A stretch of DNA of 48,961 nt, taken from the NCBI GenBank assembly GCA_947177635.1, contig CAMWVQ010000013.1, positions 1 to 48,961 on the forward strand, in the 5' to 3' direction. This DNA comes from an uncultured Porphyromonadaceae bacterium. Its GTDB lineage: Bacteria > Bacteroidota > Bacteroidia > Bacteroidales > Muribaculaceae. The notes under the pieces were generated by a model that saw only the letters and a list, made by a program, of their open reading frames with translations, ran no database searches and was not told the origin of the DNA. Shown piece by piece: positions 10,297 through 32,143 of this stretch. A program made the translations under genes and the position numbers. Position 1 is the first letter of the stretch. Each line of letters begins with the position of its first letter.

Positions 10297-12042
10297 ATGA
10301 AGAGTCATTTCACATTAGCTCTCGCGGCAGCTGTCGCGCTGTGTGCAAACGCCGAAAGCCGTCAGCAGGCGGTGGGCCGGATCTCGATGGAAGCTCCCGG
10401 GTTCCAGCAGAAGACCACAGCACTCACAATCTCCAAGAAGACTCCTTCCCGCGCCAAGGCAATCCAGAAATTCGCCGGCGAGTATGAATGGTCGCGCTAC
10501 GACATGCTCGACTACAACAAGACTCTGACCAGCACCCTCGAATTCACCCTTATTGACGCCACCACAGGTGAGTTCCAGATTTCAGGCTGGCCCTGCGGCG
10601 GCTCGATGACAGCCTTCATCGATCCCGAAGCGGCCACGATGAAAATCAAGACCTTCCAGAAGACACGCGACATGTTAGGTGAAGACACCTACTTCTACAT
10701 CAAGGATTGGGACGGCGCCTCTTACGCCTACGGCACCAAAGAGCAGGAGTGGACTGTAGGCACCATCAGCGGCAAAAACATCATCTTCCCCCAGGATGAA
10801 ATCTGGACTCTCGGCAACTATCCCGACAACTGGATGTACTGGACTGTCACCAGCGAGAACAGATTCACCTTCATGGGTGAGGATGAAGAGGAGGAACTCC
10901 CCTCAGAGCCCATCGAAGGTGTGGACGCAATCGCCGGAGAGTATGAATACAACTTCAACGGCCTGCTCAACAACATGTCAGGCCCGCAGGTCGGCTCACT
11001 GACCATCGCCGTGACAAACGCCGCCACCGGAGAAGTATCCATAACCGGATGGCCTCAGAACTTCGTGGTTACCGGCACTTTCAATCCCACCGCTGGCACC
11101 CTCACCATCCCCAACAAGCAGTATCTCGGACGCGATGCTTCCGGAGATGACAACTACTTCTACCTCAAGGGAGTCAACAACGAAGGAAACATCCTCAGCG
11201 GAGCCAACTCCGAAGCCGCGACTGTCGGCACCGTCAACGGCCTCACCGTAACCTTCCCCGAACTTGACATCTGGGCAATCGGCGACTTCAACAATGAGGC
11301 TTTGGGCTACTGGTGGCTTTCATACCGCAACGTCTTAAACGGCGTCGACCCCAACTTCGACCCCAATGAGGGATGGGAAGACTTCTGCACCGCCGTCTTC
11401 GAGGACGGATGGGTACTTCCCAGCTACAACATCGACGGTGTGCCCGTTCTCCCCGCCGACATGCCCTGGACCGTCAACGTGCAGAAGAGCCTGACCGAGG
11501 AAGGCACCTACCGCCTCGACAACCCCTACACTGCCGAGGACTGCCCCATCCCCGCTTCAGCTGTCAAGGATGGCGGCTACATCGTCTTCTCCATCGCTGA
11601 TCCCGAATTCGTGACTGTGCTCCCCGGCGTCTTCTCAGGAGCCATGAACAGCACCAACAAGATCTGCTGTCTCAACTACGGAGGCTTCTATATGGCCAAG
11701 GGCTTCACCAAAGAGGAGATTATCGCGGGCATCGAAGGCTTCGAACCCTCGACCTACGATGAGGCCACCCACATCGTCACCATACCCCAGTGTGGTTTCA
11801 ACTTCCCCGGAGCAGATGACAAGTATTACACCTGGCAGGACCAGAGCGGCACAAGCCTCGCCGACAACATGAACACCAAGCTCACCCTCTCACGCGGCAC
11901 CTCAGCCATCTCCAACGTTGAGGTTGACGACGCCAACGCCCCCGTTGTATATTACAACCTCCAGGGCATGCGCGTGGAGAATCCCGCCAACGGCGTGTTC
12001 ATCCGCGTTCAGGGCTCACAGGTAACCAAGGTTGCCAAGTAA
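10297..12042 (+). CDS. Secreted protein with internal duplication and C-terminal sorting-like tail
   Basis: I do not recognise a named family. The 581-aa protein has a signal peptide (MKSHFTLALAAAVALCANA). Two homologous modules of about 140 aa start at FAGEYEW (about residue 59) and IAGEYEYN (about residue 211). Each contains a TTGEFQISGWP or ATGEVSITGWP strand, a DxYFYxK strand and a PxxEIW/PELDIW strand, suggesting repeated beta-sandwich folds. A different domain follows (about residues 365-540). The tail VVYYNLQGMRVENPANGVFI resembles the short T9SS or Por-type tails common in Bacteroidales. It is probably a surface or secreted acidic protein. It is monocistronic, with its own promoter and terminator. 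Confidence 0.75.
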   Translation: MKSHFTLALAAAVALCANAESRQQAVGRISMEAPGFQQKTTALTISKKTPSRAKAIQKFAGEYEWSRYDMLDYNKTLTSTLEFTLIDATTGEFQISGWPCGGSMTAFIDPEAATMKIKTFQKTRDMLGEDTYFYIKDWDGASYAYGTKEQEWTVGTISGKNIIFPQDEIWTLGNYPDNWMYWTVTSENRFTFMGEDEEEELPSEPIEGVDAIAGEYEYNFNGLLNNMSGPQVGSLTIAVTNAATGEVSITGWPQNFVVTGTFNPTAGTLTIPNKQYLGRDASGDDNYFYLKGVNNEGNILSGANSEAATVGTVNGLTVTFPELDIWAIGDFNNEALGYWWLSYRNVLNGVDPNFDPNEGWEDFCTAVFEDGWVLPSYNIDGVPVLPADMPWTVNVQKSLTEEGTYRLDNPYTAEDCPIPASAVKDGGYIVFSIADPEFVTVLPGVFSGAMNSTNKICCLNYGGFYMAKGFTKEEIIAGIEGFEPSTYDEATHIVTIPQCGFNFPGADDKYYTWQDQSGTSLADNMNTKLTLSRGTSAISNVEVDDANAPVVYYNLQGMRVENPANGVFIRVQGSQVTKVAK

Positions 12043-13520: not shown

Positions 13521-14684
13521 ATGTATTTCGCATTCAACAACATATTGCCTTTAGTGTGGATATGCCTCGGGACAGCCGTGGGCGCGATGATTTATCTGCT
13601 GACCGTCTACCGGCGGTTCACCCGCCTGCGCCCTCCCGCCGAGGAGGATGCCGTCCCTGACGCCGACCTGCCGGGAGTCTCGGTTATCATATACGCCCGC
13701 GACAACGCCTCGGAGCTGCGCGAGAACCTCCCCGAAATCCTCGCCCAGGAGTATCCTGAGGGGAAGATGGAGGTGATAGTGGTCAATGACGGTTCGGTCG
13801 ACGATGTAACCGACGTGGTCAACCATCTCGGGCAGCAGCACCCCAACCTCTATATCACTTTCGTACCCGACGAGGCCCACAACCTCAGCCGCAAGAAACT
13901 CGCCGTATCGCTGGGAATCAAGGCGGCAAAGAAGGAGACGGTGGTGCTGACCACCGCCGAATGCCGTCCGGCGTCGAGGTTCTGGCTCAGACGGATGGCC
14001 GCGCCGTTCCGGAAGTCAGACGTTGTGCTCGGGTGGGCCGCCATCGACAACCTTTCGGGGCATTCACTCCGCTTCGACGAGGCCGCCCGCGGCACAACCT
14101 GGATTTCCGCCGCCCTGAACAGACGTCCTTACCGTGGCACCGCCTTCAATCTCGCCTACAGGCGCGACCTCTTCTTCGAGGCCAAGGGATTCTCGCGTTC
14201 GCTCAACCTCCACAACGGCGATGACGACATTTTTATCCACCAGATCGCAAACCGCGGCAACACTTCGGTTGTTCTATCACCTGACGCGCTGATGACAGTC
14301 AGCTTCCAGCGGCCCAAAGCGGCCTACCGCGACCTGCGCCTGCGCCATTGCTTCACCCAGAGGCGCCTCCCCAAGGGGGCCAGACGGCTGCTGGGAAGCG
14401 GCACCCTGGCGATGTGGGTCTGGGTGGCGGCCGTCGCCACCGGGGTGGTATTCTCCCTCCCCAACTGGTTCCCCTCCTGCCTGTTCGCCGCCACTGTCCC
14501 CGCTCTGTGGATTCCATTGACGGTCAACTGGCTGCGCACCGGCCGCACACTTGGAATCAAGCTATCCCCCGCCCTGCTGTGGTGGGAGATGCTATGGCGA
14601 TGGCTTCCCGGCCTGCGGTGCAGACTCGCATGCGGGTCAAGCGACCGCAGAAACTTCACATGGCACACCAAAAAGATAAAATGA
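13521..14684 (+). CDS. Membrane-anchored family 2 glycosyltransferase
   Basis: This 387-aa protein has one N-terminal membrane segment (about residues 7-27). A GT-A domain starts with GVSVIIYARDNASELREN and VIVVNDGSVDD, and two further membrane segments lie near residues 295-340. The usual metal-binding DxD position (normally TDADC) reads TTAEC, so the second carboxylate is a glutamate and the first is missing. It may still be active, as related inverting enzymes vary here. Donor and acceptor are unknown. Its stop overlaps the start of the amidase gene by 4 nt (ATGA), tying it to the peptidoglycan genes downstream. Confidence 0.82.
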   Translation: MYFAFNNILPLVWICLGTAVGAMIYLLTVYRRFTRLRPPAEEDAVPDADLPGVSVIIYARDNASELRENLPEILAQEYPEGKMEVIVVNDGSVDDVTDVVNHLGQQHPNLYITFVPDEAHNLSRKKLAVSLGIKAAKKETVVLTTAECRPASRFWLRRMAAPFRKSDVVLGWAAIDNLSGHSLRFDEAARGTTWISAALNRRPYRGTAFNLAYRRDLFFEAKGFSRSLNLHNGDDDIFIHQIANRGNTSVVLSPDALMTVSFQRPKAAYRDLRLRHCFTQRRLPKGARRLLGSGTLAMWVWVAAVATGVVFSLPNWFPSCLFAATVPALWIPLTVNWLRTGRTLGIKLSPALLWWEMLWRWLPGLRCRLACGSSDRRNFTWHTKKIK

Positions 14685-17600
14685 CGCCGACATTGACCCG
14701 ATACCTCAGACTTATCACATGCCTCCTGCTGACCGGCCTCCTGCTGGCGTCAGGAGGCGATGACCTTTACGCCAAAAAGAAAAAGTCTTCACGCAGAACG
14801 CGCACGACAAAGACCCGGAAATCACGGAAATCCAAAAGGAAGAAGAAATCGGCGCCCCCATTGCCGGTCGTGGTTCTCGGCTCGACCGGCCCGATTGACG
14901 CGCCTGAGCCGTTCGTGACCCTGCCGCAGGTCAATGATGCCCCCGACGGACTCGACGGCCGCACCATCGCCCTCTGGCCCAGCCACGGAAAGTATTACTC
15001 AGGCGCGTGGGTATGGCAGCGGCCTCGCCTGTTCGGCACCGTCGAAGACCTGCTCTCACGCGCGTTCGTCGACCCGTATGTCACCCCGATGCTTGAAAAC
15101 GCCGGGGCCTACGTCATGATGCCGCGCGAACGTGATTTCTCCCACCGTTCGCTCATCGTCGACCACGACTGGAGCAGCGGCGACGGCCGCTTCGCCACCA
15201 CTTCGGGACGCCACAAATGGGAGGCGTTGCCCGACAGCACCGGCTTCGGCCACCGTGGCAGCTACCTGCTGCAAGGCGACAACCCCTTCCTGATGGGTTC
15301 TTCCGGGATGGCAAAGACCGTGGAACCGGAGGATTCGGCGGAGATGTCTGTCGCCGAATGGTATGGAACCGCGCCCGAAGAGGGTGACCGCGCCGTCTAT
15401 GTCTCCTACAAATCATTCCCCAACAGCGCGACCGACGCGGTCTACACCGTCAACCATCTCGGGGGTTCCTCGAAGGTGACAGTCAACCAGCGAATGGGGG
15501 GAGGCACATGGGTCTATATCGGCACATATCCTTTCTCCGCCAAGGCCGGCACACTGCCGCTCGTGACCCTCTCCAACATCTCGGCCGACGAGGATGCCGT
15601 GGTGTCGGCTGACGCCGTGAAAATCGGCGGCGGCATGGGGCAGGTGGCCCGCTCGAAAGGGGCCGGCTCACCGCAGGTGTCGGGATACCCGGCCTTCCTC
15701 GAAGGAGCCAGGTATTACCTCCAGGGAGCAGGATTCCCCGAGGAGGTCTACAGCCCCAACAAGGGGGAGAACGACTATATGGACGACTACATGTCGCGCG
15801 CACTCTGGGTCAACTGGCTGACCGGCGGCTCCGAGATGCTTCCCGACTCCATCGGCCTGAACGTCCCGGTCGACATGGTGCTGGCCTTCCACACCGATGC
15901 CGGAATCAAGACCGACTCCACAACCGTCGGCACCCTCGGCCTATACTCGACCGACGGCGGAAACCCGCTCGGCAACGGCACATCACGTTACGCCAACCGC
16001 GACCTGACCTCGGCCGTCACAACCCAGGTGATAAATGACATACGCCGTCTCTACGACCCCTTCTGGAGCTCGCGCGGCAACCGCGACAGGCGTTATTACG
16101 AGGTGCGCGAGACAAAGGTGCCGGCGATGATCATCGAACTTCTCTCCCACCAGAACTTCGAGGACATGAAACACGCCCTCGACCCGGAGTTCCGATTCAT
16201 CGTCGGGCGCGCCGTCTACAAGGGAATCCTGAAATTCCTCGCCGAGCGATACAACCAGCCATATACCGTGCAGCCGCTTCCTGTGGAGGCATTCGCCATC
16301 CACGCCGACGGCGACGGATACTACACCCTCACCTGGCGTCCGGTATCAGACCCTCTGGAACCGACAGCCTCCCCCACCGGCTACATCATCTATGAGGCCA
16401 CCCCCGACCGCCATTACCATCCGGTGGCGAAGACCGACATCCCCTCCTGGACAACCCGGGTGGATGATGACAAAATCCACGCCTACTATGTTGTGGCGGC
16501 CAACGACGGCGGAGTCTCATTCCCCTCCGAGGTGCTCGCCCTATACGACAACAACCACCGTATGCCGTCGGTCGAGATTGTCAACGGATACACCCGCGTG
16601 TCGGCCCCCCGATGGACCGACGGGGCAGAGTATGCCGGATTCGATTTCGAGGAGAACTACGGGGTGCCTGACGGCCGCGACATCCATTTCATCGGCGCGC
16701 AGTATGACTTCGACCCCGAATCGCGCCTGTCAGGCTCAAACCTCGGATTCGGGGCATCGGCCGACACCGAGGCCACAAGCCAGAGGTTCGGCAACTCCCA
16801 CGACTACACCATCATCCACGGCGAGGCGATGAAGAAGGCCGGACGCGGGTTCGTCTCCTCATCCCTGAAAGCGTTCGAGGAGGGGAAATCGACCTACAGG
16901 ATGGTTGACCTGATTCTCGGCCTGCAGAAGACCACCCGCAAGGCCGGGTCGCGCGGACGTTACTTCCAGACATTCCCCACGGCCTTGCGCGACAGGCTCG
17001 AACGGTATCGCCGCGACGGTGGCACACTGCTGGTTTCCGGCTCCTACCTGGCGTCGGAAATCATCGAGGCCGACTCCCTGACCCGTGACTCGATGGCGAC
17101 TTTCGCCGCCGGCATCCTCGGCTACCTGCCGTTCACCGAGGGGGTCAACGACTCTCTGCCAAAGGCCCCTGTGGCCACCCGCTCGATGGAGCTGAAAGGC
17201 TCGGAGGTGATTCCGGGAATGCCTGTGCTGCGCCAGTCGTCGCTTGCCTCTTTCCGCAATGGCCCATGGGTCGGAGCGGGGAACCCGCAGGCAATCATCC
17301 CTGCGTCGCCCGAGGGACTGGTGATAGCCCGCTATGCCGACACCGGCTATCCGGCGGCAATCGCCGTGGAGGGCGACAAGACATCATCAGCCGGGCGCAC
17401 CGTCATCGCCGCCTTCCCCATTGAGGCGATGGAGAATGACGCGGCGAGGGAGGGCTTCATCGGCAGCTCCGTGAGCTATCTCATCGGGCCGGAAGCCCCC
17501 GCGCCTGAGGTTGCCAGACCCGCTCCCGTTCCTGTGGCCGACCCCAAGGATAAAAAGAAAAAGAAAAACAAGAAAAAAGACAACGCCAAGGCCCAGAAGA

Positions 17601-17722
17601 AGTCGGCCTCCAAAGGGAAATCCGCAAAAGACTCCCCAGTAAAGGATGGGAAGTCTCCGGTTCCCAAGCCTGTCAAACGCGACCCTGACGCGCCGCGCGC
17701 GGTTCCCCACAACCGCAAATAA
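14681..17722 (+). CDS. Exported N-acetylmuramoyl-L-alanine amidase, split by a golvesin-like domain, with FN3 and Lys-rich tail
   Basis: This 1013-aa protein probably strips stem peptides from peptidoglycan glycan chains outside the cytoplasm. The start ATG at 14681 overlaps the previous stop and gives a signal peptide (RLITCLLLTGLLLASG) followed by a basic KKKKSSRR stretch. The Amidase_3 zinc site is split: His102 in WPSHGKY and Glu122 in GTVEDL come first, then a golvesin-like beta domain (about residues 225-320, SYKSFPNSATDAVYTVNH), then His404 in AFHTDAG and the catalytic-type Glu486 in IIELLSHQN. A fibronectin III-like domain (about residues 540-630) and a Rossmann-like C-terminal region follow. 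The last 75 residues are rich in Lys, Ser and Pro. Relatives are often labelled xanthan lyase. Enzyme type is inferred from the four zinc and catalytic residues. Confidence 0.8.
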   Translation: MTPTLTRYLRLITCLLLTGLLLASGGDDLYAKKKKSSRRTRTTKTRKSRKSKRKKKSAPPLPVVVLGSTGPIDAPEPFVTLPQVNDAPDGLDGRTIALWPSHGKYYSGAWVWQRPRLFGTVEDLLSRAFVDPYVTPMLENAGAYVMMPRERDFSHRSLIVDHDWSSGDGRFATTSGRHKWEALPDSTGFGHRGSYLLQGDNPFLMGSSGMAKTVEPEDSAEMSVAEWYGTAPEEGDRAVYVSYKSFPNSATDAVYTVNHLGGSSKVTVNQRMGGGTWVYIGTYPFSAKAGTLPLVTLSNISADEDAVVSADAVKIGGGMGQVARSKGAGSPQVSGYPAFLEGARYYLQGAGFPEEVYSPNKGENDYMDDYMSRALWVNWLTGGSEMLPDSIGLNVPVDMVLAFHTDAGIKTDSTTVGTLGLYSTDGGNPLGNGTSRYANRDLTSAVTTQVINDIRRLYDPFWSSRGNRDRRYYEVRETKVPAMIIELLSHQNFEDMKHALDPEFRFIVGRAVYKGILKFLAERYNQPYTVQPLPVEAFAIHADGDGYYTLTWRPVSDPLEPTASPTGYIIYEATPDRHYHPVAKTDIPSWTTRVDDDKIHAYYVVAANDGGVSFPSEVLALYDNNHRMPSVEIVNGYTRVSAPRWTDGAEYAGFDFEENYGVPDGRDIHFIGAQYDFDPESRLSGSNLGFGASADTEATSQRFGNSHDYTIIHGEAMKKAGRGFVSSSLKAFEEGKSTYRMVDLILGLQKTTRKAGSRGRYFQTFPTALRDRLERYRRDGGTLLVSGSYLASEIIEADSLTRDSMATFAAGILGYLPFTEGVNDSLPKAPVATRSMELKGSEVIPGMPVLRQSSLASFRNGPWVGAGNPQAIIPASPEGLVIARYADTGYPAAIAVEGDKTSSAGRTVIAAFPIEAMENDAAREGFIGSSVSYLIGPEAPAPEVARPAPVPVADPKDKKKKKNKKKDNAKAQKKSASKGKSAKDSPVKDGKSPVPKPVKRDPDAPRAVPHNRK

Positions 17723-17816: not shown

Positions 17817-20123
17817 ATGGAAAAAATCTCTTGCAAGACAATCACCGTCTCCCCCACCATCGCCACCTCCCCCCTGATGAAACAACTCCGGGAGGCCGAC
17901 CGGGAGGGGACACAGTATATCCTCATCCGCCTCGACGGCTATGACATCGACCTGCCGGAGGAGGGTCTCCGCAGAATGTTGCAGGTGGCCCGCGACACCG
18001 GCGCGTCGATGCTTTACGCCGATTACAGGGTGGCCAATCCCGACGGCTCCCTGACTCCCCATCCGCTCCCCCCCTACCAGAAAGGTTCGGTCAGGGATGA
18101 CTTCGACTTCGGGCCTTTGATCATGGTGGATGTCGAGGATGCCGCCGGGGAAGCAACGGATGATTTCACACGTCCCGCCGACTCAGACCACAGCGGCCTA
18201 TACGCCCTGCGGCTTTTCCTGGCCTGCAGGAAGGGAGCGGAGAGCATCAGCCATCTCCCCGAATACCTCTACACCGCCACGGAGAGCGACCGCCGCGCCT
18301 CGGGGGAGCGACAGTTTGACTATGTGAATCCCCGCAACGCCGCCGTGCAGCGTGAACGCGAACGGGTGTTCACCTCCTACCTCACGCAGATAATGGCGGT
18401 GCTCCCGCCGGTGGAAAAAAAGATTGACCTCACAGGAGGTGATTTCCCGGTGGAGGCGTCGGTAATCATCCCCGTCCGCGACCGCGCAAGGACAATCGGC
18501 GAGGCTGTCGCGTCAGCCCTCTCGCAGAAGTGCGGGTTCAGCTTCAACGTGATTGTCGTCGACAACCATTCGACCGACGGCACGACGGAAATCCTCTCGT
18601 CTCTCGCGTCTCAAGACCCGAGGGTGGTGCATATAATACCCGATCGCCGTGACCTCGGCATCGGCGGATGCTGGGACCTGGCAGTTCGCGACCGGAGGTG
18701 CGGACGTTTCGCCATACAGCTCGACAGCGATGACAAATACAAGGATGAGACCACCCTTGAGCGCATCGTGGACTGTTTCCGCAGCGAAGGGTGCGCGATG
18801 GTCATCGGTTCATACGAGCTGACCGATTTCGACGGCAACCCCATACCTCCCGGACTGATAGACCACAAGGAATGGACTCCGGTCAACGGCCACAACAACG
18901 CCCTGCGAATCAACGGACTTGGCGCGCCAAGGGCTTTCTTCACCCCACTGTTGCGTGAAATCGGTGTGCCGAATGTCAGCTACGGTGAGGATTACGCCTT
19001 GGGGCTGCGCATATCACGCGAATACAAAATCGGCCGCATATATGATTCCCTCTACCTCTGCCGCCGCTGGCAGGGCAACTCCGACGCCAACCTGAGCCAG
19101 GAGAGGGTCAACGCCAACAACATCTACAAGGACTGGCTGCGCACCATCGAGCTTGACGCCCGGCGCGAAGCCTACCTGGAGGCGTCGGCTTCCTACCGTG
19201 AGGGAATCATCGGCATGACAGACCGCCTGATGGATTTCCACGACGCCCAGCTGGCCTGCTGGCCTCTTGCAGCCGAGAACTACAAGGGGCTTGATTCGGT
19301 CGAGACACGGGAATTCCAGGTGGCCGACAAGATGGTAAGGGCCACATTCAACCCCTGCCGAGCCATATCATCCGGCGCGAAGACCGACGCCGCATCTGTG
19401 GCCTCACGTCCCTGTTTCCTCTGCGCCGGCAACCGCCCCGGATGCCAGACAGCGTTTCCCATACTCCCGGGGTATTCCCTGCTTGTCAACCCTTACCCCA
19501 TATTCCGCCACCATTTCACCATCGCGGCCGACAACCATACCCCCCAGTGCCTGACAGCCAAGGAGCCTGACGGACGGAGCCGGTACTCCACGATGTTTGA
19601 CCTCTGCATGGCGATGCCCGACTGGATAGTCTTCTACAACGGCCCGAGATGCGGGGCGTCCGCTCCCGACCATCTCCATTTCCAGGCGACATATTTCAGC
19701 GATGCCCCCTGGCTTTATGACACTCTGGAGTGGTATGACCTACCTTATGAGAAGCATATCTTCTTCGCCGCCGACCGTGAGGAGCTCGACCGGAAGATGG
19801 GTGAAATCATGGAAGAGCTGTCACACCTCCCTGAGAACCAGGGTGAGGATGAACCGCGCGTGAATGTTTTCATGAAAAACCGGGTGAATGAGGATGGATA
19901 CTACACCCCTGACACACTCGGGGTTGATGTGCTGGTGGTGCCGCGCCGCGCCCACCGTCCTTCCTGCTACGGCACCGCCGGGGATGAGTTTATGATTTCC
20001 CCCGGGGCGATAGATGTAGCCGGGTCGCTCGTGGTGGCCCGCAAGGCTGACTTCGACCGCCTTGACGGGGAGACTGTAGGGAGAATCCTGCGTGAAACCA
20101 CCTATTTCCTTGACTGCGAATAA
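17817..20123 (+). CDS. Two-part GT2 glycosyltransferase fused to a GalT-like (DUF4922) nucleotidyltransferase domain
   Basis: This 768-aa protein without signal peptide has three parts. Residues 1-190 look like part of a degenerate GT2 domain (SMLYADYRV). Residues 207-450 form a full GT-A domain ([21 protein letters not shown], metal motif LDSDDKY at about 302-308, then [11 protein letters not shown]). Residues about 510-768 correspond to DUF4922. That last part shows a GalT/HIT-superfamily signature: CFLCAGN (Cys533, Cys536, same spacing and residues as the zinc site of E. coli GalT), [12 protein letters not shown], and [16 protein letters not shown] with HxHxQ at 619-623, where the second His is the expected nucleophile. 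It is cytoplasmic. Substrates are unknown; a nucleotide-sugar or sugar-phosphate exchange is inferred. The next gene starts directly after its stop codon. Confidence 0.8.
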
Positions 20124-21380
20124 GTGGCAACCTCCGTATTATCACCCTACACCTCCCGCGAGCCTGTGATACACGCGGGGATACTCGGCGCCACCGGCTC
20201 CGGGTATCTCCTTGACGGCCCATTTGAACGCGTCGAGGCGGATGGATGCCTGCTGCTCAGGCCCCTCTCACCCGAGGCGTCGTTCCTTCTTCCTGAGGTC
20301 AGAATCGGCATAGGCTTCCACTGGGAACGGGTCGAGCCGCAGCGTTTCCACGGGGCGTTGCGCGTCCATCCCGACGGGCTGATGGTCAATGAGGTGGCGC
20401 TGGAGGAATATCTCCGCAGTGTCATATCCTCCGAGATGAAAGCCACCGCGCCCCCCGAGTTCCTCAAGGCCCACGCGATTGTCTCCCGCTCCTGGCTCAT
20501 CGCCATGCTCGAGAGGGGGAGAAACGGGATGGATGCCGCCGGGGAATCGCACGGGGCACACACCCATATATCATTCGACAATGCGCCGGGCTGCCGGGAA
20601 ATCATCCGCTGGTATGACCGGGAGGCCCATACCCGTTTCGATGTCTGCACCGATGACCATTGCCAGCGTTACCAGGGGATTTCCCGGGGAATCTCGGCGG
20701 AGGTCGACCGGGCGGTCAGCGAGACCCGGGGGATGGTGCTTGCCTATGGCGGGGAGGTCTGCGACGCCCGTTTCTCGAAATGCTGCGGGGGGATGACCGA
20801 GGAGTACTCCTCGGCGTGGGAAGACCGCGACATGCCCTACCTGCGCAGCGTCGCCGACACAGACGCTGACGGCGGATGCCACTGCGCCACGGAAGACCCC
20901 GTGCTGCTCGGAAGCGTGCTTAACGGCTATGACCTCGACAACCCGGGATTCCATCACTGGGAGGAGGTCATTACACAGGCTGAGTTATCACGGACGGCGA
21001 TGGAGAAGACCGGCACCGATTTCGGCAGCATTGTCGGCCTGCAGCCGCTGTCACGCGGCAAGTCGGGACGAATCACCCGCCTGCTCATCCGTGGCACCAA
21101 GGAGTCGCTGATTGTCGGGAAGGAGCTGGAGATACGCCGAGAGCTATCCCCCTCCCACCTCAAGTCATCGGATTTCGAAGCAACTCCTCTTGACAAGGAT
21201 GGACTGCCGGCGGCTCCCGGAGAGATTCCCGCCGCATTCAGGCTCTCGGGCCGCGGCTGGGGCCACGGTGTCGGGATGTGTCAGATAGGTGCGGCGGCGA
21301 TGGCCTCGCGCGGTGCCTCATACCAATCAATTCTTAACCATTATTTCACAGATGCAGAACTCATCACTCTTTACCGCTGA
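20124..21380 (+). CDS. SpoIID/LytB-domain protein, probable lytic transglycosylase, no signal peptide
   Basis: SpoIID-type enzymes cleave peptidoglycan glycan strands that lack stem peptides. The 418-aa protein has VALEEYLRSVISSEM with the expected catalytic Glu near residue 104, a CTDDHCQRYQGI cysteine motif (possible metal site), FSKCCGGMTEE, and the family's closing GRGWGHGVGMCQIGA. The GTG start at 20124 directly follows the in-frame TAA of the preceding gene, so the frame cannot extend upstream. The N-terminus (REPVIHAGIL onward) is already conserved-looking and has no signal peptide, which is odd for a wall enzyme. The 3' end overlaps the permease gene by 29 nt. It fits downstream of the amidase, which would produce denuded glycan. 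Confidence 0.85.
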   Translation: MATSVLSPYTSREPVIHAGILGATGSGYLLDGPFERVEADGCLLLRPLSPEASFLLPEVRIGIGFHWERVEPQRFHGALRVHPDGLMVNEVALEEYLRSVISSEMKATAPPEFLKAHAIVSRSWLIAMLERGRNGMDAAGESHGAHTHISFDNAPGCREIIRWYDREAHTRFDVCTDDHCQRYQGISRGISAEVDRAVSETRGMVLAYGGEVCDARFSKCCGGMTEEYSSAWEDRDMPYLRSVADTDADGGCHCATEDPVLLGSVLNGYDLDNPGFHHWEEVITQAELSRTAMEKTGTDFGSIVGLQPLSRGKSGRITRLLIRGTKESLIVGKELEIRRELSPSHLKSSDFEATPLDKDGLPAAPGEIPAAFRLSGRGWGHGVGMCQIGAAAMASRGASYQSILNHYFTDAELITLYR

Positions 21381-22653
21381 GCGTGCGGTGCGCCGTAAAT
21401 CCCCCTGGTGGTGGGTGCCTACCCTCTATTTCGCCGAGGGGTTGCCTTACATGGCTGTAATGACCATCTCGGCAATAATGTATAAATGTCTCGGCATTGA
21501 CAACACGGCTCTCGCCTTCTACACCTCCTGGCTTTACCTCCCCTGGGTGATAAAGCCTTTCTGGAGCCCGTTTGTCGACATCATCCGCACCAAACGCTGG
21601 TGGGTGGTGACTATGCAGGCGGCGATTGCCGTGGGGCTTGCCCTTATCGCCTTCACCATACCGACGGCAGGGTTCTTCCAGGCAACGTTGGCGGTGTTCT
21701 GGCTGGTGGCGTTCTCTTCGGCCACCCACGACATCGCGGCCGACGGTTTCTATATGCTCGGGTTGTCTGAACACCAGCAATCACTCTTTGTAGGAATCCG
21801 CAGCCTCTTCTACCGCGTGTCGATGGTCGTCGGGCAAGGCGGACTGGTTGTGCTTGCCGCCTGGGTGAATGAGCGTTACCAGACTTTGACCGGCGGATGG
21901 ATGGCCATTTTCGCCATCATGTCGGCGTTCTTCTTCGCCGTGGCCCTCTACCACTGGTTCATACTTCCCCGCCCGAAGGCCGACTCCGACCGCGCCCCGA
22001 GGAACGGCGGGGAGGTGCTGAAGGATTTCTGCGACACTTTCATCGACTTTTTCCGCAAACCGGGAGTCGTTGTGGCTCTGGTCTTCATGCTCCTCTACCG
22101 TCTGCCGGAGGCGTTGATGGTGAAGATGATTCCCCCATTCCTTCTCGACGCCACTGCGGCCGGAGGGCTGGGCCTTGACCCCGACCAGGTGGGAATCGTT
22201 TATGGCACGGTGGGTGTGATAGGCCTGATGCTGGGAGGTATCATCGGAGGATTGGCCGCCGCGCGCGGAGGCCTGCGGAAATGGCTCCACCCGATGGCCT
22301 GGAGCATGTCGCTGACCTGCCTGACTTTTGTCTACCTTGCCTGGGGGCAGCCTTCGGCATTATGGCAGGTCTATGCCTGCGTGTTCGTCGAGCAGTTCGG
22401 CTACGGGTTCGGATTCACCGCCTATATGCTCTACCTGATATATTTCTCAATCGGACGGTACAAGACCGCCCATTACTCCATCTGCACCGGTTTCATGGCG
22501 CTCGGGATGATGCTTCCCGGACTCGCCGCGGGATGGCTGGCCGACACCTTGGGCTATCTCAACTTCTTCCTGCTGACCATCATCTGCTGCGTCACCACCA
22601 TCGGTGTGTGCTACCTGATAAAGGTGTCGCCTGAATTCGGAAAAAAGAAATAG
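21352..22653 (+). CDS. ampG: AmpG-like major facilitator permease
   Basis: AmpG-type permeases import peptidoglycan fragments across the inner membrane. The start is set at the ATG at 21352 (MQNSSLFTAERAV), overlapping the SpoIID gene by 29 nt, giving 433 aa with about twelve membrane segments. The family signatures are visible: LYFAEGLPYMAV near the N-terminus, YTSWLYLPWVIKPFWSP and SATHDIAADGFY. It sits between a glycan-cleaving enzyme and NamZ/MurK, matching its use in peptidoglycan salvage in Tannerella forsythia and relatives. Whether it takes anhydro-muropeptides, disaccharides or free MurNAc cannot be told from sequence. Confidence 0.85.
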   Translation: MQNSSLFTAERAVRRKSPWWWVPTLYFAEGLPYMAVMTISAIMYKCLGIDNTALAFYTSWLYLPWVIKPFWSPFVDIIRTKRWWVVTMQAAIAVGLALIAFTIPTAGFFQATLAVFWLVAFSSATHDIAADGFYMLGLSEHQQSLFVGIRSLFYRVSMVVGQGGLVVLAAWVNERYQTLTGGWMAIFAIMSAFFFAVALYHWFILPRPKADSDRAPRNGGEVLKDFCDTFIDFFRKPGVVVALVFMLLYRLPEALMVKMIPPFLLDATAAGGLGLDPDQVGIVYGTVGVIGLMLGGIIGGLAAARGGLRKWLHPMAWSMSLTCLTFVYLAWGQPSALWQVYACVFVEQFGYGFGFTAYMLYLIYFSIGRYKTAHYSICTGFMALGMMLPGLAAGWLADTLGYLNFFLLTIICCVTTIGVCYLIKVSPEFGKKK

Positions 22654-22661
22654 ACTGCCGT

Positions 22662-23912
22662 ATGACTGTCAGATATACCCTCTTCATATTTATCATTGCA
22701 TTGGTTGCAGGAATCGGGCGCTCCCAGGAGACCGCCGACTACCGGGTGAGACCTGGAGTGGAGGTGCTTCGCGATTCTGGGTTCGAGGCCCTGAAAGGGA
22801 AACGGGTCGGACTTATAACCAATCCCACCGGTGTCGACAACAACCTGAAAGCCACCATCGACATCCTCAATGAGGCTCCCGACGTGAAGCTTGTGGCTCT
22901 CTTCGCCCCGGAGCATGGGGTGAGGGGAGACATCACTGCCGGGGCCACTGTCGGCAACACCACCGACCCGGCTACCGGCGTGAAGGTCTACTCCCTCTAC
23001 GGCGCCACCAAGAAACCAACCCCTGAGATGCTTGCCGGAATCGACGCTCTGGTCTACGACATTCAGGACAACGGATGCCGCTCCTACACCTTCATCTCGA
23101 CCATGGCGATGGCTATGGAGCAATGCGCCAGGCTCGGGAAGGAATTCGTGGTGCTTGACCGACCCAATCCTCTCGGCGGCAACAAAATCGAGGGACTGTG
23201 TACCGACCCCGACGACATATCTTTCGTAGGGTATCTCCCCATACCATACATATACGGGCTTACCCCGGGTGAACTCGCCGGGATGATTGTCGGGGAGAAG
23301 ATGCTCAAGACCGACAAGCCGCTGAAGCTGACCGTGGTGCCGATGGATGGATGGGAGCGTGACATGCTTTTCGAGGACACGGCGATGCCGTGGGTTCTCC
23401 CCTCCCCCCATCTTCCGACACCGCAGACGGCGATTTTCTATCCGGCCACCGGTATTGCCGGGGAACTCGACTATCTCTCCATCGGCGTTGGCTACACGAT
23501 GCCGTTCCGCACATTCGCCGCTCCCTGGATTGACGCAGCCCGGCTGACCCGGCGGCTCAACTCGATGGAGATTCCGGGAGTGGCGTTCCGGCCTGTCCAT
23601 TACAAGCCTTATTACGGCTTTAAACGTGGAGAAAACCTTCAGGGGGTTGAACTCTACATCACCGACTATGACGCGGCGCCACTGACCCTGATTCAGTTCT
23701 ATGTGATGGAGGCGCTGGCCGAACTGTATCCTGCCCACAAGGCCCTCGCTGTCGCCCCGGTGAAACGCCTGTCAATGTTCGACAAGGTGACCGGCTCAAA
23801 GAAGGTGCGCCCTCTCTTCTTCAAGAACTACAAGGTTGCCGACCTACTCCCCCTATGGAACCGCGACCTCCCCTCTTTCAAGGCAACAAAAGAGAAATAT
23901 CACCTCTATTGA
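22662..23912 (+). CDS. namZ: Exo-beta-N-acetylmuramidase (DUF1343 / NamZ family)
   Basis: NamZ releases terminal MurNAc from the non-reducing end of peptide-free peptidoglycan fragments, as known for the Bacillus subtilis and Tannerella forsythia proteins. This 416-aa protein has a signal peptide (TLFIFIIALVAGIG), so it is extracytoplasmic. The family motifs are LFAPEHGVRG (Glu84, His85), YDIQDNGCRSYTF, LDRPNPLGG and LPSPHLPT, and the C-terminal helical part contains KPYYGFKRGENLQGV. It starts 8 nt after the permease gene and is followed by the sugar kinase, the same grouping as in T. forsythia MurNAc use. Confidence in family is high; exact substrate is inferred. Confidence 0.9.
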   Translation: MTVRYTLFIFIIALVAGIGRSQETADYRVRPGVEVLRDSGFEALKGKRVGLITNPTGVDNNLKATIDILNEAPDVKLVALFAPEHGVRGDITAGATVGNTTDPATGVKVYSLYGATKKPTPEMLAGIDALVYDIQDNGCRSYTFISTMAMAMEQCARLGKEFVVLDRPNPLGGNKIEGLCTDPDDISFVGYLPIPYIYGLTPGELAGMIVGEKMLKTDKPLKLTVVPMDGWERDMLFEDTAMPWVLPSPHLPTPQTAIFYPATGIAGELDYLSIGVGYTMPFRTFAAPWIDAARLTRRLNSMEIPGVAFRPVHYKPYYGFKRGENLQGVELYITDYDAAPLTLIQFYVMEALAELYPAHKALAVAPVKRLSMFDKVTGSKKVRPLFFKNYKVADLLPLWNRDLPSFKATKEKYHLY

Positions 23913-23961
23913 ATCGGGGCCATCCCGTAAAGACGCAACCTTCAATACCAGACCTACCCCT

Positions 23962-24837
23962 ATGTCAACACTTATCGCCGACTGCGGCTCCACAAAGACC
24001 GAATGGGCCATCATTAGCGACAAGGCTCCGGACGATGCCGTCATCACCTTCCGCACCTCCGGTTTCAATGCCGCCGTGACTCCCCCTGGGAACATCAGCC
24101 ACATATTGGAATCGGAGGTCATCCCCCGGCTTGCCGGTACAGCCGTGTCGCGGATATGTTTCTACGGCGCGGGGTGCATCGGTGGCGAGGTTGACGAGCG
24201 TCTGCGCGGATTGCTGGCACAGGCCGTCCCGGATGCGGCAATCGAAATTGCAGGAGACCTCCTGGGGGCCGCGCGGGCTCTTTTCGGAGGGCGTCCCGGG
24301 ATTGCGTGCATACTCGGCACCGGCTCTAACTGCGGCGTCTATGACGGGCGCGAAATCACCCTGAACACCCCTCCTATGGGCTACATCCTCGGCGACGAGG
24401 GTTCGGGAGCTGTATTGGGCCGCAAACTGATCAACATCATCTTCAAACACCCGGGGCTGTTGCCTGCCGACATCGTCGAGGATTTCAACCTTACCTATAA
24501 CCTGTCAAAGGCCGACATCATCGAACGCGTCTACCGCCAACCTGCCGCCAACCGTTTCCTCGCGTCATTCTGTCCGTTCATCCGGAAACATCTCTCCCAC
24601 CCCGTCATCAACGACCTTGTCGCCACCTCTTTCGAGGAATTCCTCTCGGCCAACCTTCCTGCAGATATGCTCACCCCTGCGGCCTCCAGAGCCTCTCTAC
24701 CCATCGGTTTCGTCGGCTCCATCGCATTCCATTTCTCAGACATCCTGACGGAAGTCTGCACCCGTCACGGGCTTTACTGCCCCACAATCCTCGCTGCCCC
24801 CCTCCCCTCCCTAATAACAGGTTTCCTGCAAAAATAA
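23962..24837 (+). CDS. murK: BadF/BadG-family sugar kinase, probable N-acetylmuramic acid kinase
   Basis: MurK-type kinases phosphorylate MurNAc (and often GlcNAc) at C6 with ATP. The ATG at 23962 gives MSTLIADCGSTKTEW, the ASKHA phosphate-1 motif, and 291 aa. An in-frame extension upstream would overlap namZ and lacks family similarity. Other motifs are CILGTGSNCGVYDG (phosphate-2) and ILGDEGSGAVLGRKL. It is cytoplasmic and lies 49 nt after namZ, as in the T. forsythia pathway where the product goes to the etherase MurQ; no murQ is visible here. Its last codons lie in a 46-bp sequence that is imperfectly duplicated just after the stop. The GlcNAc-versus-MurNAc preference is inferred from context. 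Confidence 0.82.
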   Translation: MSTLIADCGSTKTEWAIISDKAPDDAVITFRTSGFNAAVTPPGNISHILESEVIPRLAGTAVSRICFYGAGCIGGEVDERLRGLLAQAVPDAAIEIAGDLLGAARALFGGRPGIACILGTGSNCGVYDGREITLNTPPMGYILGDEGSGAVLGRKLINIIFKHPGLLPADIVEDFNLTYNLSKADIIERVYRQPAANRFLASFCPFIRKHLSHPVINDLVATSFEEFLSANLPADMLTPAASRASLPIGFVGSIAFHFSDILTEVCTRHGLYCPTILAAPLPSLITGFLQK

Positions 24838-25088: not shown

Positions 25089-26267
25089 TTACTTCAGGTT
25101 GACGGTCATCTTGGCCATACGGTTCCAGTCGAGCTTGTTGAAGACTTCGGTTACACCGAGACCTTCGGCTGTGATGCTGGATTCGGGCACACCTTCCTGG
25201 ATGAGGGCTTTCTTGACAGCCTGTGCGCGACGCTCTGAGAGCTTCTGGTTGAAGGCCTTGGAGCCGTCCTTGGAAGCGTAACCCTGAACGAGAACGGTAG
25301 CACCGGCGTTGTCCTTAACCTGAGCAGCGGTCATAGCGATTTCGGGCTGCTGGTTGGCCTGGATGTAGGAGGAGTTCACGTTGAAGAAGACGTAGCGGAT
25401 GTTGTCAAGGCTCTTGATAACCTGCTGTACTTCTTTGGGACGACGGTTGCAAGCGTCGAGCTGAGCCTGGAGGTCGGCGAGCTGAGCGAGCAGGGCTGCG
25501 TTGCTTGCGCCGCAAGCCTCGAGGTCGCCGCGGAGGGCGTTGATCTGGGCGTTGAGGGCGTCGATTTCAGCCTGGTCGAAGGGACGCACGAGGGCGAAGT
25601 GGTGTGTACCGTTGGAGTTCTTGAAGTGGTAGGTGATACCGGCCTGGAGCTCGAAGTACATGTTGTTCACGTTGTAGTGAGAGTCGTAGCCGAGGTTGCT
25701 GAACTTGTCGGGAGCCACGTCGCCGTTCATGTTCCAGAGGAGGGCGGGCTTCAGAGAGATGGTCCAGGCCTTGGCTTCGCCGAGGTTGAAGTTGAGGTTA
25801 AGACCTACCTTGGTAGCGAAGGAGTTGCCGTCATCGATACCGGTCGAGTGGGGGTAGTAGGAGTGGAGCCATCCGGCACCGGCTACTGCCTCGATTTCAA
25901 ACACACGGGGAGCACCGGTGTAGCTTGCGAAGAGGTTCATCAGGTTGATGGCACCGAAAGTACCTACATACTGATGGTCGAAAACGTTGGCTGACTTGAC
26001 GCCGGTCCAGGAGGAGGTGTTGACGCTCCATTCCCCTTCAACGCCGATACCGAAAGTGGGGGTTACCTGCTTGCGGATTTCAGCACCGACGATGCCACGA
26101 CCTGTCTTGAGGAAGTCTTCACCGGTTGCAGTTTTGGTAGCAAACACGCCGCCACCCTTGAGGGTGAACGACCAATTGTCTGAGAACTTGTTGCCTGCGT
26201 CTGTAACCTGAGCCTGCGAGGTGCAAACTCCCAGAGCGAGGGCAGCTAAAAGAATTGCCTTTTTCAT
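25089..26267 (-). CDS. OmpA-family outer membrane protein
   Basis: This 392-aa protein has a signal peptide (AILLAALALGVCTSQA) and an N-terminal eight-stranded beta-barrel-like region (to about residue 220). A short coiled coil is rich in Asn, Ala and Leu (INALRGDLEACGASN, about 228-275). A C-terminal OmpA/MotB peptidoglycan-binding domain (about 285-392) contains VLVQGYASKDGS and LSERRAQAVKKAL. It most likely links the outer membrane to peptidoglycan and is probably abundant, given its strong consensus promoter and isolated transcription unit. It lies next to the T9SS operon but is separated from it by a terminator and its own promoter, so a role in secretion is not implied. Confidence 0.9.
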   Translation of the reverse strand: MKKAILLAALALGVCTSQAQVTDAGNKFSDNWSFTLKGGGVFATKTATGEDFLKTGRGIVGAEIRKQVTPTFGIGVEGEWSVNTSSWTGVKSANVFDHQYVGTFGAINLMNLFASYTGAPRVFEIEAVAGAGWLHSYYPHSTGIDDGNSFATKVGLNLNFNLGEAKAWTISLKPALLWNMNGDVAPDKFSNLGYDSHYNVNNMYFELQAGITYHFKNSNGTHHFALVRPFDQAEIDALNAQINALRGDLEACGASNAALLAQLADLQAQLDACNRRPKEVQQVIKSLDNIRYVFFNVNSSYIQANQQPEIAMTAAQVKDNAGATVLVQGYASKDGSKAFNQKLSERRAQAVKKALIQEGVPESSITAEGLGVTEVFNKLDWNRMAKMTVNLK

Positions 26268-26296
26268 AAGAGATGTTTCTTGTTGTATGCTGGCCG

Positions 26297-26327
26297 CAAA
26301 GTTAAAAAAAATTTAACACTTTACAAA
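26297..26327 (-). promoter_or_regulatory. Promoter of the OmpA-family gene
   Basis: On the minus strand TTTG (26324-26327), 19 bp, TAACTTTG (26297-26304): a full consensus match. The transcript start near 26290 gives a short leader of about 22 nt. Confidence 0.82.
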
Positions 26328-26628
26328 ATTTTTCTAAGCTTTTTTTTTGATTATCAGCGATTATCGGGTCTGGGTTCTGCAAAAAAATCTGTCGTCAAAT
26401 CGTCATAACCATTATTCAAGCTTATCAACACTTTTTAAACAATCGACAGGATAACAAAGTTTATGATTCGGTCATAATTTTTAAGCGCGCATATCATTTA
26501 TCCGCAAAACTCCCTGAACCATAACCACATCCGACAAACGCCCCTTTTCTTTTCGGAAAAATACCGCGGCAAACCGCGGCAAGGATGCCGAAGAGGGCGA
26601 AATAGAGCAGAACAATCCTCATAAACAG

Positions 26629-26654
26629 CGATGACGCGCCGGAGCGCGTCATCG
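26629..26654 (-). terminator. Terminator hairpin after gldN
   Basis: CGATGACGCGC (26629-26639) pairs perfectly with GCGCGTCATCG (26644-26654) around a 4-nt loop, 52 nt past the gldN stop. The following T-run is short (GTTT). Confidence 0.7.
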
Positions 26655-26706
26655 TAAAAGTCTGCGGCATCTTGTGAAAGACGCCAAAAATCCGGGGTTG
26701 CATCCG

Positions 26707-27894
26707 TTATTTGCGGCGGCGGACAGATTTTGTCGCCGACGAGGAGGATTTGGGGGCGGATTTTGGCTTGGAAGCCTTTTTCTTGGGCTTTGTCTTTGTG
26801 GCGGTTGATTTCCCGCGTGCGCGGCTGGAACGCGTCGAGCGCACCTCTTTCCTGGGGGATTCCTCAGCCTCTTCAACCTCGCCGTCGCGGGAAGCGATGG
26901 CGGCGTCAGCGTCTTTGGCGGCCTCGGCTGCCTCCTCCGCGGCTTCACGGGCCTCACGGGCGGCAATCACCTCTTCACGAGATGGAACCCAGAGTTTCTT
27001 GTCGAACTGCTCCAGACGGTTCTGGATGCTGTCCTGGGCGCGCTGGCGGTCGTCAGGGTCGGGATAAAGCTGCATCATCGACTTGTTGGCCAGGTTGCGG
27101 GTCTTGTAGATGTCGCCGTCATACATGTTGCGCGAGAAATAGTCGGCATAGGTGTATTTTGGGAGGTTGTTGTCGTCATCCACGAAGATGTATTGCTGTG
27201 TCAGGTATGGACGCAGGTTGTCCATCTTCACCCAGAACATCGGATAACGCACCGCCTCTCCGCCGAAGTCGTCGGAACGGTGGAGCACGGGGCAGATGGC
27301 CTCGACGATGCGGCGCGTCTTGTTGGTGCGGGAGTCAAACTCCCATTTCTCCAGCACGAAATATGACAGCACTTCATTGGCGGGAACGTCGGCCTCCTCG
27401 ATGAGGAACTTCGGGTTCTTCTCGCTTGAGCCTTTGGCGGGGGAGTAAAGCACGTGGAAGCGATCAAGCATGTCTGACACCTTCACCTTGTACTGGTCGG
27501 TGAAGATTTCCTTGCCGTCGAGATACTCATAGACAGGAATCCGGTTGTCAGCCACCAGACGCATTATTATGCGGAAAAGATTCTCCTGGCCGTCGACAAC
27601 CTCCTCGGGATAGTAGAGGGGGGTGTTCTTGGGGTTGTCAAGCTTGAGGTCACGGTATATGACACGCATCCACATCTTGTCGGCGTCGGAGGTCTCCTGG
27701 GTGGTGAACCGCTGCTGCATGCGCTCGGTCACGCCGGGGCCTGCCTCCCGCTGCTTGCCGCGCGAACGGTCGCCGCCTCCGCGACGAACTATCGAGGAGC
27801 TTGACGAGCCTCCGTCGTTGGTCTGGGCGGCGACGGGAGAAATCGCCGCGAAGAGGGCGACGGCGGCCAAGGTGTATCTTGCAAATGCTTTCAT
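26707..27894 (-). CDS. gldN: Type IX secretion system ring protein GldN/PorN
   Basis: GldN/PorN is a periplasmic protein that forms the large outer-membrane-associated ring with GldK/PorK. This 395-aa protein has a signal peptide (AAVALFAAISPVAA). The family core includes MWMRVIYRDLKLDNPKN, FRIIMRLVADN and VLEKWEFDSRTNKTRR, at about residues 60-310. The C-terminus is an alanine/glutamate-rich stretch followed by about 60 residues very rich in Lys, Ser and Arg, ending VRRRK, which makes it longer than the P. gingivalis protein. It is the last gene of the operon, 29 nt after gldM. Confidence 0.92.
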   Translation of the reverse strand: MKAFARYTLAAVALFAAISPVAAQTNDGGSSSSSIVRRGGGDRSRGKQREAGPGVTERMQQRFTTQETSDADKMWMRVIYRDLKLDNPKNTPLYYPEEVVDGQENLFRIIMRLVADNRIPVYEYLDGKEIFTDQYKVKVSDMLDRFHVLYSPAKGSSEKNPKFLIEEADVPANEVLSYFVLEKWEFDSRTNKTRRIVEAICPVLHRSDDFGGEAVRYPMFWVKMDNLRPYLTQQYIFVDDDNNLPKYTYADYFSRNMYDGDIYKTRNLANKSMMQLYPDPDDRQRAQDSIQNRLEQFDKKLWVPSREEVIAAREAREAAEEAAEAAKDADAAIASRDGEVEEAEESPRKEVRSTRSSRARGKSTATKTKPKKKASKPKSAPKSSSSATKSVRRRK

Positions 27895-27923
27895 GTTCTG
27901 GGTATGTCTTTTTCTTTACCTTT

Positions 27924-29492: not shown

Positions 29493-29551
29493 TGGCTAAG
29501 AGTTTATATGGTTAAAGATATGTCTTTGTTTCGGTAATCCCCGGCCGGGGC

Positions 29552-30571
29552 TCAGGCCTGCGGCGAGGAGGGACGGCGCGGGGCGCCCTGATACTGGGGA
29601 GGCACAGCCTGGGCAGGAGCGGCCTGGGGCTGCGAGGGGGCCTCAGGGGCCTGAGCAGGTTCGGGGGTGACAGGCACGGCCTGAGCAGCTCCCTGTGCGG
29701 CGGCCGCAGCGGCGAGAGGATTGGCGGCGTACATGTTGATGGTCATCGCGTTGATCATCTTCTCATACACGGAGTTGAGCTGGTGCATGTAGAGGGCCAT
29801 CTTCTCGGTCTCCTCGCAATAGCGCGCGCTCTGCGACGAGCTGCGCTCATACATGTCGCGGATTTCCTTGATGCCTGCGTTCACTCGGTCGATGGCGTCG
29901 AGCTGCGAGCTTACGCTCTTGAGCTGAATCTCGTAGATGGTGTTGAGGCCCTGTATGTTGCGGTTGAGGCCCTGCATCTGCTCCACATATCCGGTCGAGG
30001 AGCGGGTGATGTTCTCCGAGTTCTCGGTGATTGCGCGGTATGATTCAAGGAGCACGTCGCTGACATTGTTGAGCGAGCGTGTGGTCTCCTGGAGATGGCG
30101 CAGCTCCTCTGCCATCGCCGACACCTGGTCGAGATAGGTCTGCGTGGCCGAGACCATCGAGCTGACCACTTCGGCGGGGGTGGAGTCTGAGGAGAGAACG
30201 GGAGCCTGCACGGGGCCGGCCTGGGGAGCGACGCCTCCGGCGGCATTGACACCTCCGTTTATGACCACTCCTGTGCCGGCCTTGAAGTCGGGACGGTCAT
30301 CGGGGTCGCCGGTCTCGAACACCGGGAAGACATTCTCCCACTTGTAGTCGCGGGGAGGACGGTCGAAGGCGGTGAGGGTGAACATCAAGACCTCTGTGCC
30401 CATACCGAGCGACAGCAGGAAGTTTCCGCCCGGAAGGTGGAGAATCTTGAAGAGGGCACCCCATATCACGATGGCGGCACCGATAGAGTACGCGAAGTTG
30501 AAGAAACGCTGCCCCTTCTCCGAGGATATCCAGGCCGAGAGGCCGCGCTTGTATTGCTTGTATTTTCCCAT
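29552..30571 (-). CDS. gldL: Type IX secretion system motor protein GldL/PorL
   Basis: GldL/PorL is the inner-membrane stator partner of GldM, with two membrane segments at about residues 23-42 and 48-67 (AYSIGAAIVIWGALFKI and GNFLLSLGMGTEVLMFTLTAF). The segment IWGALFKILHLPGG holds the region where proton-coupling residues are described in the family; Glu61 in MGTEVLMF is the likely key charge. A long cytoplasmic coiled-coil-like part follows. The last 55 residues are an Ala/Pro/Gln-rich low-complexity tail, so at 339 aa the protein is somewhat long for the family. It lies between gldK and gldM. Confidence 0.93.
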   Translation of the reverse strand: MGKYKQYKRGLSAWISSEKGQRFFNFAYSIGAAIVIWGALFKILHLPGGNFLLSLGMGTEVLMFTLTAFDRPPRDYKWENVFPVFETGDPDDRPDFKAGTGVVINGGVNAAGGVAPQAGPVQAPVLSSDSTPAEVVSSMVSATQTYLDQVSAMAEELRHLQETTRSLNNVSDVLLESYRAITENSENITRSSTGYVEQMQGLNRNIQGLNTIYEIQLKSVSSQLDAIDRVNAGIKEIRDMYERSSSQSARYCEETEKMALYMHQLNSVYEKMINAMTINMYAANPLAAAAAAQGAAQAVPVTPEPAQAPEAPSQPQAAPAQAVPPQYQGAPRRPSSPQA

Positions 30572-30639
30572 TGAATCAAGTCTGAGAAAGATGGATTTTG
30601 CTTATGCCGTGAATTTTGAGTCTCGATTGACGCGGGTCA

Positions 30640-32085: not shown

Positions 32086-32143
32086 ATTTCTGAGTAGTTG
32101 TGATCTTTGTTATGGCGTCATCACCGGGGTTGTCCCGGGGGTC

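Follow-up and report, generated by a model that had tools for sequence, protein, structure and literature searches.

The window analysed here is a 48,961-nucleotide stretch of DNA (GenBank assembly GCA_947177635.1, contig CAMWVQ010000013.1) from an uncultured Porphyromonadaceae bacterium. It encodes a protein in which a family 2 glycosyltransferase (GT2) is joined to a DUF4922 domain, within a run of peptidoglycan-salvage genes comprising a candidate amidase, a SpoIID/LytB-domain protein, an AmpG-family permease, a NamZ muramidase and a putative sugar kinase (Table 1). A sequence-only reading of the window had proposed the fusion, a GalT-like C-terminal third and, as one hypothesis, a MurU-like or phosphorylase recycling step. 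The anatomy and the salvage context were confirmed, and we regard the finding as a variant of muropeptide recycling, wider than described by that reading: in Bacteroidota, GT, DUF4922, SpoIID/LytB and AmpG recur together as a module, and the fusion is only one of its several arrangements.

Domains and conserved residues of the fusion protein

The open frame of 768 residues carries Pfam matches to GT2 (PF00535, residues 215-348, E 1.7e-19, reaching the gathering score) and to DUF4922 (PF16269, residues 475-625, E 5.3e-52, 176.1 bits against a cut-off of 23.6). The motifs CFLC (C533, C536), FRHHF (H566), DNH (H574) and HLHFQ (H619, H621, Q623), as well as the DSDD metal motif of the GT domain (residues 303-306), all lie where the sequence-only reading had put them. 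The listed Cys, His and Gln residues are invariant in 40/40 rows of a DUF4922 alignment (the window and 39 of 42 locus rows), and the LDSDD, GEDY and CRRW motifs are invariant in 40/40 rows of a GT alignment (the window and 39 of 43 locus rows); the motif pattern is therefore not due to chance. The GT2 domain combines the GT-A fold with DxD and ED motifs, and both halves of the protein look catalytically intact by motif conservation.

On the AlphaFold2 model, the C-terminal domain runs to the end of the protein (residues 463-767), well past the 146-position Pfam model. Its best match in both fold and sequence is the diadenosine tetraphosphate (Ap4A) phosphorylase Apa2, and its fold is nearer to Ap4A phosphorylase than to GalT; Foldseek matches ranked below the Apa2 and GalT-type ones were taken as noise. 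The fold matches bear out the HIT/GalT superfamily. In the model, H621 occupies the place of the catalytic-motif His of Apa2, which agrees with the earlier proposal of an active-site histidine near residue 621. The gathering score of Pfam Ap4A_phos_N was missed (19.2 bits, cut-off 23.1), no GalT Pfam model was among the matches with an E-value of 1 or less (most of those weaker than about 0.1 being removed by filters), and profile searches of the fusion protein gave no match to the NTP_transferase fold or the MurU model. DUF4922 is very probably a phosphorylase-type domain acting through a nucleotidyl-histidine. The N-terminal 200 or so residues and the GT domain align with the tandem-GT enzyme K4CP (overall root-mean-square deviation above 22 Å), which is consistent with, though no proof of, the partial second GT domain suggested previously.

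Table 1. Features of the fusion protein and of the surrounding gene run (pLDDT, predicted local distance difference test; pTM, predicted template modelling score; ORF, open reading frame; MFS, major facilitator superfamily)
Feature	Position	Strand	Basis
GT2-DUF4922 fusion protein, 768 aa	17817..20123	+	Open frame; Pfam; AlphaFold2 model, pLDDT 90.1, pTM 0.85
N-terminal partial GT-like region, ~residues 1-199 (tentative)	17817..18413	+	Alignment with K4CP
GT-A (GT2) catalytic domain, ~residues 210-462	18444..19202	+	Pfam, fold match, invariant LDSDD/GEDY/CRRW
DUF4922 / Ap4A-phosphorylase-like domain, residues 463-768	19203..20120	+	Pfam, fold, invariant Cys/His/Gln
Separate GT2 glycosyltransferase with hydrophobic stretches	13521..14684	+	Profile matches
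Golvesin-C + Amidase_3 protein, secreted amidase candidate	14348..17722 (ORF limits; likely ATG near 14681)	+	Pfam
SpoIID/LytB-domain protein, no evident signal peptide	20124..21380	+	GTG start directly after TAA of GT2-DUF4922
AmpG-family (MFS) muropeptide permease	21289..22653 (ORF limits; likely ATG near 21352)	+	TIGR00901, 3.5e-55, below curated cut-off
NamZ exo-N-acetylmuramidase, signal-peptide-like N-terminus	22662..23912	+	Pfam
NagK/MurK-like sugar kinase	23836..24837 (ORF limits; likely ATG near 23962)	+	NF046058, 3e-7, below cut-off

Module architecture and distribution

Two sets of loci were compared, annotated with profiles and window-derived sequences for eight gene families around the module: a closer set of 43, biased because it was collected through resemblance to the fused protein, 42 of them with a DUF4922 match; and 40 drawn from 126 DUF4922-positive genomes irrespective of context. 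GT, DUF4922 and SpoIID occur as separate genes (e.g. L033, L034, L037, L039, L040, L079), as a GT-DUF4922 chain without SpoIID (the window and 10 loci), as a DUF4922-SpoIID chain (L036, L038, L041, L081), or as a single chain of all three (24/43 loci; lengths of 1192-1298 aa, with contig ends truncating some). Across the 42 closer loci, 34 have GT fused to DUF4922 and 8 have it as an adjacent gene. SpoIID forms one chain with DUF4922, sometimes together with GT, in 27, lies within 8 kb in 13 and was not seen in 2; 35 loci have AmpG within 8 kb. Of the 40 context-blind loci, 32 have an adjacent GT on the same strand, 33 have GT within 8 kb and 7 have none; 26 have SpoIID either fused or no more than 8 kb away, and 28 have AmpG within that distance. 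NamZ (13), kinase (13) and amidase (9) complete the count. The predicted link to peptidoglycan-salvage genes is thus recurrent, the SpoIID and AmpG links more so than those to NamZ and kinase. In 12 of the 17 relatives with both DUF4922 and a MurQ match of at least 290 bits, the two share a contig at a distance of 6-11 kb, in line with the Tannerella forsythia operon considered below, and no module genes were found near AnmK at loci L086-L095.

Several AmpG homologues near the module (L034:13582-15444, L045:7942-9816 and others) carry an extra mid-permease loop of about 200 residues; of 67 ORFs matching AmpG, 17 are longer than 590 aa, in at least one case (L041) solely because the start is over-long. 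Possible second copies of DUF4922 were seen in G284, with two matches, and in G107, where two of the three matches are partial and lie close to each other on a single contig.

A crude hydrophobicity scan of N-termini found signal-like sequences in 0/38 stand-alone SpoIID, 0/48 DUF4922 and 2/76 GT ORFs, and in 17/19 NamZ and 7/13 amidase ORFs. By this crude test the three module proteins mostly lack such signals, so that SpoIID looks cytoplasmic; a cytoplasmic SpoIID beside a muropeptide importer would be the oddest feature of the finding. The window SpoIID exceeds the curated cut-off of TIGR02669 (177.1 bits, cut-off 83.3) and retains the conserved Glu (E104, invariant) and the Cys/His residues of the family. 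As for the other neighbours named by the sequence-only reading, amidase, AmpG and NamZ hold, AmpG below its curated cut-off, whereas the kinase has no Pfam match and only a weak one to NagK (E 3e-7). The separate upstream GT2 gene is a module neighbour in only 3/42 and 1/40 loci.

Directly beyond the salvage operon lies a type IX secretion/gliding cluster (25089-33900, minus strand) encoding OmpA, GldN, GldM, GldL, an FGE-sulfatase-domain protein, which we take to stand at the place of GldK, PorP/SprF and a beta-barrel protein. The window further encodes a gingipain-family peptidase (C25; 5575-8055, minus strand) that carries a weakly matching Por secretion tail, and a 581-aa protein (10297-12042, plus strand) with a signal-like N-terminus and no Pfam match, whose C-terminus presumably resembles a type IX sorting tail.

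The distribution of DUF4922 was set against that of AnmK in 61 relatives, 218 genomes of the order (completeness at least 90%) and a phylum sample of 296. DUF4922 is present in 42/61, 55/218 and 44/296 (43 over the cut-off), AnmK in 14/61, 149/218 and 207/296, and both together in 2/61, 9/218 (one by a weak DUF4922 match) and 20/296 (Fisher p 2e-6, 5e-21 and 3e-4, respectively, ignoring kinship). Within the order, the two largely exclude each other. By family, 29 have DUF4922, 82 have AnmK and 9 have both, and families can contain both states, f118 for example (G398 with DUF4922 only, G487 with AnmK only). No match to the NagZ model exceeded the curated cut-off in any of the 218 genomes, and its matches are termed NagZ-like GH3 only; these are missing from 12/55 DUF4922 genomes and 9/163 others (p 0.001, one unlisted genome being counted as lacking DUF4922). 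The named control Lactococcus lactis matches DUF4922 and not AnmK. Its DUF4922 match and that of Synechococcus elongatus place the domain beyond the phylum of the module.

In the window's own genome (99.6% complete), profile searches did not find AnmK or GH20, nor a NagZ-like GH3 at E 1e-20, its three GH3 genes falling short of that value with the NagZ model. MurQ gave only a weak partial match and no convincing one, which makes a kinase feeding MurNAc-6-P (MurNAc, N-acetylmuramic acid) to MurQ unlikely in this genome. MurNAc auxotrophy is ruled out by MurA, present above its cut-off. Adjacent AmgK-like and MurU-like genes lie elsewhere in the genome (L084), both below curated cut-offs; the former (L084:3447-5051), directly upstream of the latter, encodes an APH kinase fused to a RapZ C-terminal domain. 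The MurU model was uninformative over the 61 genomes, matching 61/61 with none over the cut-off.

A possible cytoplasmic route and its alternatives

In the explanation that we favour, GT, DUF4922 and SpoIID would form a cytoplasmic set that substitutes for NagZ and AnmK and dismantles the peptide-free disaccharides imported by AmpG, a tentative reading whose chances we put somewhat below even. It is based on the fold, motif conservation, gene association and fusions, the lack of signal peptides in the crude test and the distribution; the fold and the gene association are well supported. Stem peptides would be stripped by the secreted amidase, and AmpG would import the disaccharides of N-acetylglucosamine (GlcNAc) with MurNAc or with its 1,6-anhydro form (anhMurNAc). 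SpoIID, acting as a lytic-transglycosylase-type enzyme with water as acceptor, may then open the 1,6-anhydro ring of GlcNAc-anhMurNAc to give GlcNAc-MurNAc. GT2 enzymes invert, and reversal on a beta-1,4 link yields the alpha-linked uridine diphosphate (UDP) sugar UDP-alpha-GlcNAc, a step that is uphill alone; a fused phosphorylase consuming UDP-GlcNAc with phosphate would pull it. The GT2 might run backwards, converting GlcNAc-beta-1,4-MurNAc and UDP to UDP-alpha-GlcNAc and MurNAc, while DUF4922, through a nucleotidyl-His621, would convert UDP-GlcNAc and phosphate to GlcNAc-1-P and UDP. The net reaction would be phosphorolysis of the disaccharide with UDP as cofactor, and MurNAc would pass to AmgK/MurU or MurK/MurQ. 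The pull on the uphill reversal would offer a reason for the repeated fusions. The substrates, the direction of reaction and the individual SpoIID, GT2 and DUF4922 steps are what we infer here. We lean slightly towards AmpG-linked processing in the cytoplasm making AnmK dispensable; the exact chemistry is doubtful, as is its fullest formulation, an AnmK- and NagZ-independent route of Bacteroidota in which SpoIID reopens anhMurNAc and the GT2-phosphorylase, with catalytic UDP, delivers GlcNAc-1-P and MurNAc, as one three-enzyme chain in Prevotella-type genomes.

Several observations weigh against this explanation. AnmK is retained in eight genomes of the order whose DUF4922 match is strong, and seven of them have GT, SpoIID and AmpG near DUF4922. 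Outside the order, AnmK occurs in 16/38 strong-DUF4922 genomes (one by a weak match), so that the exclusion is strong only within the order; in 15 loci of other classes (L064-L078), nearness of SpoIID is unrelated to AnmK, present in 3/6 with and 5/9 without SpoIID nearby. The named controls Bacteroides ihuae and S. elongatus match both DUF4922 and AnmK. Genomes are not independent, and relatedness alone may account for much of the exclusion pattern. NagZ-like GH3 is kept by 43/55 DUF4922-positive genomes of the order, where GT and DUF4922 would be redundant for that step, and the three GH3 genes of the window genome (open frames of 753, 844 and 757 aa) are of unassigned specificity. SpoIID is out of reach in 14/40 context-blind loci and AmpG in 12/40, some of them at contig ends. 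To our knowledge, no GT2 works backwards in a comparable role. T. forsythia grows poorly on free anhMurNAc, possibly because its import is poor, according to the available text of PMC7670621.

One alternative is an ordinary lineage-specific operon, with AnmK exclusion due to shared ancestry, SpoIID exported to the periplasm by an unrecognised route and a general part for the module in envelope turnover; the weak exclusion outside the order, the eight genomes with both genes and the crudeness of the signal-peptide test speak for it. Both states nevertheless occur inside families such as f118, and SpoIID shares one chain with two nucleotide-using domains in 24/43 loci; we regard such an operon as rather unlikely. 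In the role suggested by the sequence-only reading, DUF4922 would turn salvaged sugar-1-phosphates into nucleotide sugars for use by the fused GT; in a related form, it would exchange UDP between UDP-GlcNAc and MurNAc-1-P. Such MurU/GalT-like charging draws on the HxHxQ and CxxC motifs that we take to be those of GalT, on the superfamily fold and on the salvage neighbours. It is weakened by the AmgK/MurU-like pair of the same genome and by a fold and sequence nearer to phosphorylase than to GalT, and it leaves SpoIID and the AnmK pattern unexplained. The near-exclusion of AnmK in the order points to a step further upstream than the charging of nucleotide sugars, at which imported GlcNAc-anhMurNAc is opened or split, and the MurU-like role is disfavoured as improbable.

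A forward, biosynthetic GT-DUF4922 protein, building an oligosaccharide or modifying imported muropeptides that SpoIID then trims or transfers, to give an envelope or signal glycan from salvaged sugars, would suit the intact GT2 motifs, the matches to polymer-building or decorating enzymes (K4CP, WrtF, TarP, heparosan synthase) and the second GT2 gene upstream in the window. A phosphorylase beside a forward GT would waste donor, and the AnmK pattern would again go unexplained; no recurring lipid-carrier or export genes came to light around the module, in a survey aimed at eight gene families only. This role is likewise improbable. Nucleotide housekeeping or sensing, with DUF4922 degrading Ap4A or another nucleotide signal to tune GT or SpoIID, fits Apa2 as the best match in fold and sequence, but offers no reason to adjoin AmpG or for the recurrent link to GT2 and SpoIID, and is very improbable. 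An unrelated fold, poor conservation of CxxC and HxHxQ, and a lack of peptidoglycan association had been named beforehand as grounds for abandoning the sequence-only reading; none of the three was found.

Should the cytoplasmic dismantling of disaccharides be true, it may represent a new means of breaking glycosidic bonds with phosphate by way of a nucleotide cofactor. The module offers a proposed function for a widespread domain, as well as an unusual SpoIID that looks cytoplasmic. Many gut and mouth bacteria have this enzyme set, fused or side by side, beside the importer of cell-wall sugar fragments, and may use it to split them inside the cell by a non-textbook route. It also bears on which cell-wall fragments Bacteroidota of the gut and mouth consume and which they release.

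Comparison with known systems

No publication describing the module was found by title or abstract, in a search that missed most subscription journals. The nearest system is the ampG operon of T. forsythia (Tanf_08345-08385), transcribed as one unit in the order xanthan lyase, gtf, gtf, lytB, ampG, ybbC, murT, murK, murQ (PMC5388701, available text). By gene order and names, this fits the amidase/Golvesin, GT, DUF4922, SpoIID, AmpG and NamZ series of the window, and locus L079 shows the split form of such an order. The available text of that paper assigns no function to the gtf genes and names no DUF4922, for which Tanf_08355 is a candidate by position. The window differs in having GT and DUF4922 in one chain and a genome without a convincing MurQ. 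According to the parts of PMC7670621 available, T. forsythia AmpG imports both GlcNAc-anhMurNAc and GlcNAc-MurNAc, growth is fed by digests rich in either disaccharide, less by the anhydro one, free anhMurNAc feeds it poorly, an ortholog of AnmK is not predicted, and how GlcNAc-anhMurNAc is processed further is left open. Opening of the ring with GlcNAc still attached would explain why the disaccharide feeds the organism better than free anhMurNAc, and the module is a candidate for this use.

AnmK and NagZ, which we take to form the canonical Escherichia coli route, would act on the same imported disaccharide; they are unrelated to the module enzymes, and AnmK is mostly absent from DUF4922 genomes of the order. 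The module SpoIID belongs to the same sequence family as SpoIID/LytB proteins elsewhere, with the conserved Glu and Cys/His cluster; those proteins are exported, whereas the module version lacks a signal peptide by the crude test and, in 27/42 loci, is joined to DUF4922 alone or together with GT. The DUF4922 domain shares its superfamily and, presumably, its CxxC and HxHxQ motifs with GalT. With yeast Apa2 (4i5t) it shares the fold and HxHxQ at 16% identity over aligned residues, differing in being bacterial and fused or adjacent to GT2 and SpoIID. A precedent for a phosphorylase of nucleoside diphosphate sugars is plant GDP-L-galactose phosphorylase (GGP, VTC2), likened here by literature family assignment alone, some of these proteins being placed in the DUF4922 superfamily in the available text of PMC9871823 and PMC11047344.
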